Source: Halobacillus yeomjeoni (GTDB lineage: Bacteria; Bacillota; Bacilli; Bacillales; Halobacillaceae). From it: DNA of 64,000 nt. Made by a program: the position numbers and the translations under genes. Location: the NCBI RefSeq assembly GCF_020171525.1, contig NZ_JAIVAI010000008.1, positions 62,001 to 126,000 of the forward strand. The letters run 5' to 3'. The notes under the pieces are model-generated. The model was not told where the DNA came from. It saw only the letters and a list, made by a program, of their open reading frames with translations, and ran no database searches. This document shows positions 5,277 through 8,053 of this stretch, piece after piece. Position 1 is the first letter of the stretch. The number at the start of each line of letters is the position of its first letter.

Positions 5277-5306
5277 GTTTAATAATTGATTTCCCTGCCC
5301 ATACTA
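5277..5306 (+). promoter_or_regulatory. Candidate SigF promoter of spoIIR
   Basis: GTTTA (-35, fits GYWTA), 15-bp spacer, then GCCCATACTA, which matches 9 of 10 positions of the SigF -10 consensus GGHNANAHTR. spoIIR is a SigF gene in B. subtilis. Confidence 0.5.
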
Positions 5307-5339
5307 GCGACTAGTAGAAGGACAGGGAGGATATACGAA

Positions 5340-5936
5340 ATGAAAAACAGATGGCTGGTTTTGGTAGCTTTGTCGATTTTGGTTTCTGTTTTACCTTGGG
5401 GCCAGCGTATGGATGCCCAATTGGAACAAAATTATCAAGTCATTCCAGACGAAGCCATTCGTCTTCGCATATTGGCGGACAGCAACGGTGAAATGGATCA
5501 ACAGCTGAAACGCCAGGTCAGAGATGATGTGAATGCTGAAATTACTGAATGGGTGGAAGACATAACATCCATCGAGGAAGCGCGTGAACAAATTAAAACC
5601 CGCCTTCCTGAAATTGAAGCAATCGTAGGGCGGACACTAGAATCTGCACATGTCAATCAGACGTACACAGTCCAATATGGAAGCAATGTTAAATTTCCTA
5701 CTAAACTTTATGGTACTTATATCTATCCATCAGGAACCTATGAAGCGATTCTGATCACCCTTGGAAAAGGAGAAGGAGATAATTGGTGGTGTGTCCTGTT
5801 TCCGCCTTTATGTTTTTTAGATTTTTCTAATGGAACGAGCGTTGCTCAGGGAGAAGAGAATGAATTTGAAGACCCACAAGAAGAGAAAGAAGTTAAATTC
5901 TTCGTTTTAGAATTGTTGGATAAGTTATTTTCATAG
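5340..5936 (+). CDS. spoIIR: Stage II sporulation protein R
   Basis: Signalling protein made in the forespore under SigF and secreted across the intermembrane space, where it triggers SpoIIGA to cleave pro-SigE in the mother cell. The 198-aa product has an N-terminal signal peptide (residues 1-23), the conserved IRLRILADSN block just after it, and the family's C-terminal WWCVLFPPLCFLD block. ATG 5340 follows GGGAGG by 9 bases; the in-frame upstream extension is non-coding leader containing the promoter. A hairpin CCCTG...CAGGG spans the leader just before the ribosome binding site. Position after prmC matches B. subtilis. Confidence 0.95.
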   Translation: MKNRWLVLVALSILVSVLPWGQRMDAQLEQNYQVIPDEAIRLRILADSNGEMDQQLKRQVRDDVNAEITEWVEDITSIEEAREQIKTRLPEIEAIVGRTLESAHVNQTYTVQYGSNVKFPTKLYGTYIYPSGTYEAILITLGKGEGDNWWCVLFPPLCFLDFSNGTSVAQGEENEFEDPQEEKEVKFFVLELLDKLFS

Positions 5937-5941
5937 CATAG

Positions 5942-5990
5942 CACCCATACCTTTTTTCATAGAGTAAGAGAAAAGGGGTGTGGGTTTCTT
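5942..5990 (+). terminator. Terminator after spoIIR, overlapping the next ribosome binding site
   Basis: ACCCATACCTTTT pairs with AAAAGGGGTGTGGGT and is followed by TTTCTT. The right arm is also the only Shine-Dalgarno-like sequence for the gene at 5991, so folding would both terminate and block translation. Confidence 0.65.
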
Positions 5991-6302
5991 ATGTTTATTA
6001 AGAAAATAGAAGATGAACTCTACCATATTTGTAAGGAGAATAATCAAGTAGGCTCTTTCCGGTTGATGGAACTGCAAAGTGGGTGTGGACAAATCAAGGA
6101 AATGAGGCTGGTTGAACAGGTTGCTCCTGTACAAATCCTGGCGGTCTTCGAATTGATCCAGTCTTATGCACAAGAACAGCATTTCAAAGAGCTCCATGTC
6201 GTCAGTCATTCGACAAATTTGAATCGAATCTTACAACACCAACAGTTTGTTTTGGAAGATGTCGAAAAAAATCTGTGGATATATAAAGTTAATCACAAGT
6301 AA
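5991..6302 (+). CDS. Small GNAT-like protein (YwlB position)
   Basis: A 103-aa cytosolic protein. The C-terminal half resembles the second half of a GNAT acetyltransferase fold: a helix with E-L-I-Q-S-Y-A, a strand ELHVVSHS, then a helix and a Q-Q-F-V-L-E-D end strand. B. subtilis carries the larger acetyltransferase ywlB at this position between spoIIR and ywlC, so this may be a shortened orthologue that lost the N-terminal strands. A clear acetyl-CoA pyrophosphate loop (Q/R-x-x-G-x-G/A) is not visible, so catalytic activity is doubtful. The ATG is preceded by AAAAGGGGTG, which lies inside the spoIIR terminator. Confidence 0.5.
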   Translation: MFIKKIEDELYHICKENNQVGSFRLMELQSGCGQIKEMRLVEQVAPVQILAVFELIQSYAQEQHFKELHVVSHSTNLNRILQHQQFVLEDVEKNLWIYKVNHK

Positions 6303-6303
6303 C

Positions 6304-6449
6304 TGTGAATAAGTAAGGTGTTTATGCACATTTATTCATAAGTTTGTGCATAACCTGTGGATTCAGGATTTTGGAACGAAGAAATTACTAACGGATTCTT
6401 TGGATATGTGGGTAAAACTGTGGATAACCTGAGGACATCTTGTGAATAA
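6304..6449. promoter_or_regulatory. DnaA-box cluster upstream of ywlC
   Basis: Five exact matches to the Bacillus DnaA box TTATNCACA occur in 146 bp: 6304-6312 (-), 6322-6330 (+), 6345-6353 (-), 6419-6427 (-, the canonical TTATCCACA) and 6441-6449 (-). Two more differ by one base: 6332-6340 (+) and 6407-6415 (-). The region is non-coding and AT-rich. As I recall, B. subtilis has a stable DnaA-binding cluster upstream of ywlC too, so the site seems conserved in position. It may titrate DnaA near the origin and/or regulate ywlC. Confidence 0.8.
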
Positions 6450-6523
6450 TGTCTAAATTTGCGATATTATGTAGAATTCATCATAATAAATAATTAGGAA
6501 ATGATCGAAAAGGAGTTCCCAAG

Positions 6524-7564
6524 ATGTGTATGAATACGAAACTATGGAATCCATCCACACTTACTATAGAAAATGAACCTTCTATTGAAGAAGCTGCAAA
6601 ATTGTTAAGAGATCGTCAGGTGGTCGCTTTTCCGACTGAAACTGTATATGGTCTTGGCGCAGATGCCACAAATGAAGAAGCTGTCCAAAGAATTTTTGAA
6701 GCTAAGGGAAGGCCTGCGGACAACCCTTTGATCGTTCACGTCGCTGATGTCGGGCAGGTAGAGGAATTGACAGAGGACATTCCTCCCGTCGCGTATCAGT
6801 TGATGGAAACCTTTTGGCCGGGTCCATTAACCTTGATATTAAAAAGTAATGGTCAAGCTGCAAAAAACGTGACGGCCGGTTTATCCACAGTAGGCATACG
6901 GATGCCGGACCATCCGCTTGCATTGGCTTTGTTAAAGCAGTCTGGTGTACCACTAGCCGCTCCGAGTGCCAACCGATCGGGACGCCCGAGTCCAACAGAA
7001 GCATCTCACGTTTATCAAGATTTGAATGGCAGAATTGCCGGCATCCTCGATGGCGGACCTACCGGTGTAGGGGTGGAGTCGACTGTGCTCGATCTTTCAT
7101 CATCTGTCCCAGTTATATTGAGACCAGGTGGAATTACAAAGGAAGACATTGAAAAAGTAGTTCCTGAAGTTGTTTTTGATCCAGCTCTTAAAGGTGGAAA
7201 AGACAAGCCTAAATCTCCAGGGATGAAATATACTCATTATGCACCTGAATCCCCTTTGTGGTTAGTCTATGGAGATGATGAATATTTCAAGCAGCAGTTA
7301 GATCAGCTGATTGAAAAAGGAGAACGGGTCGGAGTTATTGCCAGCAAGGAGCTTGCCGGTCAATTGCAGTTTGATCGAGTGATTGAATGTGGTTCAAGAG
7401 AGAGGTTGGAAGAAATAGCTGTAAAACTTTATTCTGCTCTGCGGGAGTTTAAGAAATCCGATGTGGATGTCATCTTATGTGAATCATTCCACTCTCATGG
7501 AGTCGGGGCCGCCGTCATGAACCGATTGGAAAAAGCAGCCGTACGTACATTGAAGCAACAGTAG
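6524..7564 (+). CDS. ywlC: Threonylcarbamoyl-AMP synthase (Sua5/YwlC)
   Basis: Makes threonylcarbamoyl-adenylate from threonine, bicarbonate and ATP, the first step of t6A37 formation on ANN-decoding tRNAs. The 346-aa protein has the YrdC/TsaC domain (about 15-210: VAFPTETVYGLGADA, KGRPADNPL, SAPSANRSG-like AAPSANRSG) followed by the C-terminal Sua5 domain (about 230-346), so it is the long Sua5 type. ATG 6524 follows AAAAGGAG; ATG 6530 is an alternative. The DnaA-box cluster lies immediately upstream. Confidence 0.95.
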   Translation: MCMNTKLWNPSTLTIENEPSIEEAAKLLRDRQVVAFPTETVYGLGADATNEEAVQRIFEAKGRPADNPLIVHVADVGQVEELTEDIPPVAYQLMETFWPGPLTLILKSNGQAAKNVTAGLSTVGIRMPDHPLALALLKQSGVPLAAPSANRSGRPSPTEASHVYQDLNGRIAGILDGGPTGVGVESTVLDLSSSVPVILRPGGITKEDIEKVVPEVVFDPALKGGKDKPKSPGMKYTHYAPESPLWLVYGDDEYFKQQLDQLIEKGERVGVIASKELAGQLQFDRVIECGSRERLEEIAVKLYSALREFKKSDVDVILCESFHSHGVGAAVMNRLEKAAVRTLKQQ

Positions 7565-7568
7565 TATC

Positions 7569-7605
7569 AAAAGTCTTTTCCTTAGTGGGAAGAGGCTTTT
7601 TTTGA
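7569..7605 (+). terminator. Terminator of ywlC
   Basis: AAAGTCTTTTCC pairs imperfectly with GGAAGAGGCTTTT and runs into a T tract. The MITE at 7609 starts 4 bases beyond. Confidence 0.75.
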
Positions 7606-7608
7606 TTT

Positions 7609-8053
7609 GGCTCTGTTAAAGTCTGTTGTTGATATTTTAAACGATTACTAAATAGTACCAGTCTAGGATTAGGGGCCTGTCCGTTATTTACTAAAAGCAT
7701 GGGATGGCAGGGAAAACAGTCCGCGTTTCGCGGGGGACGCTGAGCCTCCTCGAATTCGTACTCCGGGGTCACACCTTGTTCCTTTTTTTCCTGCCATTCT
7801 GTTCGTGGTTGGTGTAACGGATTTCGGTTATGGCCTTTCAGACCCTTCAACTTTGAAGAGACGGCCTTGGGGATGGCGAGACTCCTGTGGGATAAAGGTA
7901 CATCGTGAGACCCCGGAAGGCGCAGCCTTAGGAGGCTCACGGTACCCCACGGAAAGGGAGTCATTCTAAAAGGCCGCCTCATACAAAACACAGGACGGAA
8001 AGAGCTGATATATGCTCACATGTGAAACAACAACACCAAGCAGTAACAGAGCC
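7609..8053. mobile_element. MITE-like element, copy 2 (445 bp)
   Basis: GGCTCTGTTA/TAACAGAGCC ends as in the other copies. Flanking octamers TTTGATTT and TTTGATAA match at 6 of 8. About 20 bp of the left internal hairpin (the CAGGAGTCTACCTG arm seen in copies 1 and 3) is missing. In the right hairpin the left arm reads GGCCTTGGGGATG but the right arm is CATTCTAAAAGGCC, so the arms no longer pair well. The element occupies the interval where B. subtilis carries mntP (ywlD). The minus-strand ORF across it is spurious. Confidence 0.85.

Follow-up and report, generated by a model that had tools for sequence, protein, structure and literature searches.

A conserved DnaA-box cluster upstream of ywlC in Halobacillus yeomjeoni: a probable counterpart of the Bacillus subtilis ywlC region

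Upstream of ywlC in Halobacillus yeomjeoni lies a dense, conserved cluster of DnaA boxes that we interpret, with a probability of about 0.8, as the counterpart of the ywlC cluster of Bacillus subtilis, at which cooperative binding of DnaA would repress ywlC and hold DnaA from oriC. The boxes themselves, their conservation, the footprint of promoter and boxes, and the sister clusters were read directly from the DNA. The window analysed is a stretch of 64,000 nucleotides (positions 62001-126000 of contig 8; the draft genome comprises 3.27 Mb in 15 contigs).

The box cluster and its density

An earlier note on this DNA had described five exact and two one-mismatch TTATNCACA boxes in 146 bp of intergenic DNA upstream of ywlC, mostly on one strand. 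The count was reproduced at 6304-6449 (Table 1), with 4/5 exact boxes and 5/7 boxes in all on the minus strand, and the ends of the flanking reading frames confirmed the position, the cluster lying in the gap between 6302 and 6524. Further near-boxes were found at 6274 and 6289. The cluster is thus placed between spoIIR-"ywlB" and ywlC, with prmC and spoIIR on the upstream side of the 103-aa ORF, for which no Pfam or NCBIfam match was obtained. YwlC of the window matched five Halobacillus loci at 70-72% and 21 other genus genomes at 68-78%, the top value being a partial match.

Table 1. Features around the box cluster in the window. Identity is column identity to the window in an alignment of 22 genus genomes, the window's included.
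Feature	Position	Strand	Remarks
spoIIR	5286..5936	+	PF09551; TIGR02837
103-aa ORF in the place of ywlB	5991..6302	+	named by position only
outlying exact DnaA box within upstream ORF	6164..6172	+	not common to the aligned genus relatives
DnaA box TTATTCACA, exact	6304..6312	-	91% identity
DnaA box TTATGCACA, exact, offset 18 from preceding box	6322..6330	+	90% identity
one-mismatch box TTATTCATA, not conserved	6332..6340	+	30% identity
DnaA box TTATGCACA, exact, partly conserved	6345..6353	-	80% identity
one-mismatch box TTACCCACA, strongly conserved	6407..6415	-	94% identity
DnaA box TTATCCACA, exact, most conserved	6419..6427	-	99% identity
DnaA box TTATTCACA, exact, 9 bp upstream of putative -35	6441..6449	-	97% identity
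putative sigma-A type promoter of ywlC, TTGCGA-N17-CATAAT	6459..6487	+	consensus scan; hexamers 93% and 87% conserved in genus
ywlC (Sua5/TsaC), L-threonylcarbamoyladenylate synthase	6524..7564	+	Pfam PF01300, PF03481; TIGR00057 above cut-off
outlying exact DnaA box within ywlC	6881..6889	+	same place (+252) in 9/44 family genomes, window's included

Exact boxes are enriched in the window as a whole, where 9 were counted against 2.6 expected and 9 were reached in 0/100 shuffles. Throughout the genome, 134 exact boxes were found in 3,266,544 bases compared to 98 occurrences of the reversed pattern. The ywlC cluster is the single place in the genome with five exact boxes in 150 bp, the runner-up having 4, and a post-hoc Poisson estimate puts the genome-wide expectation for 5 boxes in 146 bp at ~2e-7. 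The comparison with oriC that the earlier note had proposed gave 5 exact boxes in 146 bp and 6 in 300 bp around the ywlC cluster, against 4 and 3 in 300 bp on the two sides of dnaA, which is located on a different contig. The density is therefore, as that note had it, far above chance.

Conservation within the genus was evaluated against the 3' end of the upstream ORF, which is 64% identical in the 22 genus genomes (window included). The best conserved block consists of the three promoter-proximal boxes (6407, 6419 and 6441) together with the putative promoter. As the promoter consensus scan returned 2 sites in the stretch against 1.9 expected, it is weak alone and the genus conservation is the better argument for the promoter. 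Such a footprint speaks for genuine regulation of ywlC, in addition to the titration proposed below. A genus element, ACTAACGG...GTGGGTA, was tried as a Bacilli-wide motif and rejected, since at <=8 mismatches (noise floor 9) it was found in the window's family only.

Elsewhere in the window, similar short ORFs (SRLLWGKGTS, GSHDVPLPHRSL) lie between genes at about 690-960, 2340-2640 and 7515-7990, which suggests a repeated intergenic element.

Conservation at ywlC across Bacilli

Conservation was assessed in 188 of 189 YwlC loci, anchored on the FPTETVYGL motif (locus L202 of genome G046, which does not have the motif, was left out). A cluster was scored where the 400 bp before the anchor contained two or more exact boxes. 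From a class sample of 299 genomes, 145 non-family genomes were analysed for boxes and codons, the first 29 chosen by best score and the rest hand-picked to spread over families, with family f47 left out. Clusters were found in 42/44 genomes of the window's family, 23/26 other genomes of the same order (ten families) and 50/118 other genomes of the class. This amounts to 115/188 genomes, and at least one genome in 30/51 Bacilli families. The reversed motif reached two boxes in 0/188 loci over the same 400 bp, and in four neighbouring 400-bp bins two boxes were seen in 9/752 bin-by-genome cells. In the two misses within the family, G023 and G037, three exact boxes are still present but lie further upstream, beyond additional DNA, and once these are counted all 44/44 family genomes have a cluster at ywlC. 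The conservation supposed in the earlier note was thereby borne out. In G037 two opposite-strand ORFs now stand between the retained cluster and ywlC, a single case and perhaps a recent one. Among named loci, counted over -350..+60 relative to the start of the match, 4-5 boxes were present in 5/5 from Halobacillus and 3 in that of Thalassobacillus pellis. No boxes were found in 24/24 loci of Clostridia, Veillonella, Bacteroidota and Ignavibacteria (L012 covers 175 bp upstream only and some loci match in part). Based on its presence across Bacilli and the zero count outside, the ywlC cluster looks like a trait of Bacilli, although in 21/51 families of the class not one genome had 2 boxes at ywlC, the G+C content there being >=49% in 12 of these families.

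The distance of ywlC from the origin was determined in 74 genomes that carry dnaA and ywlC on a single contig and whose upstream DNA was scored for boxes. These came from 91 genomes searched for dnaA; in the others the distance could not be measured because the two genes were on different contigs, a match over the cut was lacking, or the ywlC place was not listed. The cluster was present in 43/64 genomes in which dnaA and ywlC are separated by at most 0.40 of the half-chromosome, and in 0/10 in which the distance is greater, at a cut chosen post hoc, with sizes partly rounded, a few genomes in several contigs and G023 counted absent. The contrast (Fisher p 6e-5) is uncorrected for kinship and confounded by phylogeny, and the ten origin-distal genomes represent six families only, one of them staphylococcal-type by inference, hence few independent events. 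In five genus relatives assembled in 1-3 contigs, ywlC is located at 0.24-0.31 of the half-chromosome; the present genome is in 15 contigs. The 21/64 origin-proximal genomes without the cluster, including all 8 tested of family f26, together with the 21/51 families mentioned above, mean that the cluster is not essential.

Outside the window's family, exact boxes were also found within the ywlC reading frame, at -85(-) from the anchor in 30/144 genomes (13 families), at -55(+) in 19/144 (11 families) and at -73(-) in 10/144 (7 families). They translate as VD[K/N] and Y[P/S/T/A][H/Q]. In the 45 codons before the anchor, VD[K/N] was encoded as exactly TGTGGATAA in 49/65 cases against 3.1 expected from the gene's own codon use, and Y[PSTA][HQ] by exact boxes in 27/38 against 1.6. 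Taking only the first one per family, 15/20 and 11/16 were box-coded. In the control, open frames of >=150 codons outside the locus and clear of the cluster, the values were 4/25 and 5/63, the former also exceeding codon expectation; frames overlapping the cluster inflate the counts to 34/113 and 42/156. Window ORFs gave 0/7 and 0/3. Deeper in ywlC, VD[K/N] was box-coded in 28/38 cases, taken as further boxes, and Y[PSTA][HQ] in 1/104. The rest of ywlC is no clean control for VD[K/N], and the flanking ORFs and codon expectation were used instead. The preference is located at synonymous positions and at the third base of the preceding codon and therefore points to selection on the DNA of the in-frame boxes. 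Such tripeptides occur in the pre-anchor zone of 0/44 family genomes, and the YwlC enzyme consequently does without them. In the window itself all clustered boxes are upstream of ywlC and the in-frame pattern does not apply. In L078, the YwlC locus of genome G281, the exact DnaA box TGTGAATAA at -130 from the anchor overlaps AAGGAG, the apparent ywlC ribosome-binding site.

A bolder reading, to which we give somewhat less than even odds, is that the cluster serves the Bacilli as an old DnaA sink tethered to its position. Selection on it would have been strong enough to write boxes into the protein, such that the N-terminal extension of YwlC would, in many families, largely be translated boxes (VD[K/N] being TGTGGATAA and the YPQ-type TTATNCACA), and the cluster would be lost when ywlC leaves the origin. 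The type of site is already known; what is new against the literature searched is how widely the cluster is conserved and that boxes occur in frame, on neither of which a report was found there, Okumura 2012, Goranov 2005 and Ishikawa 2007 lying outside that search.

Proposed function and alternative readings

Other places in the genome with at least 3 exact boxes in 150-300 bp are both dnaA sides, trmE/jag, gcp/ydiF, an htrA-like gene and the gap between ECF-sigma and PCYCGC-lipoprotein genes, and the best Sda match has two exact boxes next to it. Out of the six non-oriC regions of B. subtilis in the top eight of PMC4447404, five were compared (all but ywcI/vpr), and ywlC, gcp/ydiF, trmE/jag and sda are boxed here. 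The cluster on the htrA side (L223 3042-3261, C4:128541-128760) has four same-strand exact boxes downstream of the htrA-like gene in the yyc region and is probably the counterpart of B. subtilis yydA/yyzF, a label taken from the htrA/yyc neighbourhood. The gap between the ECF sigma factor and PCYCGC lipoprotein genes (L225 2887-2978, C5:54386-54477) contains three same-strand exact boxes, and none such appears in the part of Table 1 of PMC4447404 compared here. The gcp cluster lies between convergent genes and hence not at a promoter. The gcp/ydiF cluster is present in 15/21 genomes with the ywlC cluster and 2/9 without it, G138, with boxes just outside the limits, being counted absent. The genome has four Sda-family matches (G000:C1:263737, C1:514440, C1:154810 and C7:55904), with exact boxes beside the best only. 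tRNA-modification genes adjoin three of the non-oriC clusters, namely ywlC/tsaC (window 6304-6449) and gcp/tsaD (L222 3488-3735, C2:456487-456734), both of the t6A pathway, and trmE/mnmE (L224 3189-3316).

Binding, repression and titration are carried over from B. subtilis, and by that analogy the array would be filled cooperatively by DnaA. DnaA on 6407, 6419 and 6441, just upstream of the putative -35, would reduce ywlC transcription, while the array and the sister clusters (gcp/ydiF, trmE/jag, sda and the htrA-like gene) would keep DnaA off oriC, such that initiation would wait until DnaA exceeds the number of sites. We infer that repression and titration both occur in Halobacillus yeomjeoni and that the cluster owes its long-term conservation to titration.

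It is conceivable, though unlikely, that the boxes are an operator only, tying ywlC and thereby tRNA t6A synthesis to the DnaA level or replication state, with titration a side effect. The three most conserved boxes do abut the conserved putative promoter, boxes straddle the ywlC start in other families, and ywlC is repressed by DnaA in B. subtilis according to PMC4447404 and PMC12112137, an effect of this single locus that the earlier note had not named. An operator does not, however, fit well with box positions that vary between families at a steady number of about 2-6, with the retention of the cluster in G037 despite the two intervening ORFs, with its absence from the 10/10 origin-distal genomes, few lineages as they are, in which ywlC stays, or with a sister cluster at gcp that has no promoter to serve. 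The shifting positions, the retention in G037, the lack of a promoter at the gcp cluster and the pattern of origin proximity lead us to favour titration as the older selective reason for the cluster. A site resembling datA or DARS, which would change the ATP/ADP state of DnaA beyond merely holding it, is a very doubtful alternative. Fixed geometries do recur: 19 genomes from 11 families contain the inverted pair TTATNCACA-N3-TGTGNATAA, and 11 families have a minus-plus pair spaced by 30 bp. Neither is found among the exact boxes of the window cluster. In addition, the B. subtilis ywlC region binds both forms of DnaA at a Kd of 0.25 uM (ATP-) and 0.45 uM (ADP-), a ratio under 2, in the data given by PMC4447404, which also bears on the sensing of the ATP state that the earlier note had raised as a possibility, and B. 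subtilis is without Hda and IHF homologues per the review PMC13220808.

We attach very little credence to a secondary or remnant replication origin, even though neither dnaA side matches the cluster's number of exact boxes in 150 bp. The basal unwinding system of bacterial oriC is marked by a DnaA-trio run adjoining a DnaA box. The genome's own oriC has the run CTATTACTATTA 15 bases after an exact box, whereas at the ywlC cluster no run of at least 3 triplets was found within 60 bases after an exact box; in cluster-bearing loci, 1/116 has 3 trio triplets and none has 4. Apart from the shortness of the motif, nothing speaks for a fortuitous grouping of A+T-rich 9-mers or for an RNA leader element; both are improbable in the extreme. 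Chance was rejected by the conservation of the cluster in 30/51 families, set against the genome-wide expectation and the reversed motif given above, and a leader element by the lack of an Rfam match at E<=1 in 5900-6700.

Comparison with known systems

The ywlC cluster of B. subtilis reportedly belongs to the six extra-oriC DnaA-box clusters of Okumura 2012. The earlier note had named a B. subtilis cluster distal to oriC and upstream of ywlC, and region 6 in Table 1 of PMC4447404 is such a place, given as 'upstream of ywlC; downstream of ywlB' with 9 sites by scoring matrix in 300 bp. That the clusters limit over-initiation, also stated in that note, agrees with the passages of two reviews citing Okumura 2012 (PMC13220808, PMC5295017), which report early initiation on loss of the six clusters, strong only with all six gone. 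PMC5295017 also states, citing the same Okumura paper, that no clusters playing a significant part in the control of initiation in B. subtilis have been identified. Whether extra-oriC boxes in Bacilli are titration sites or mere operators is accordingly unsettled in these parts of the reviews.

The comparative pattern described here, that is boxes written in frame at the synonymous level, positions that move at similar number, retention after separation from ywlC and absence far from the origin, provides evolutionary evidence for a role dependent on dosage and position, and also points out natural test cases.

The cluster resembles the genome's own oriC in that one and the same DnaA should recognise the boxes of both, and differs from it in the trio run, present beside a box at oriC and absent at ywlC. 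Compared to genome G281, whose YwlC N-terminus we take to equal that of B. subtilis YwlC and which has exact boxes within the coding frame (anchor positions -66 and +548), the clustered boxes of the window all lie upstream of the gene. With datA, DARS and the origin-proximal region of high DnaA-box density in E. coli the cluster would share the use of non-oriC arrays that draw DnaA off oriC, as described in PMC12371093. Organism and genes are different, and IHF dependence and nucleotide switching are E. coli features of datA/DARS. The closest likeness is to the B. subtilis ywlC region, with which the cluster has in common the same neighbours (ywlB by position), dense TTATNCACA boxes in the gap, and sister clusters at gcp/ydiF, trmE/jag and sda.
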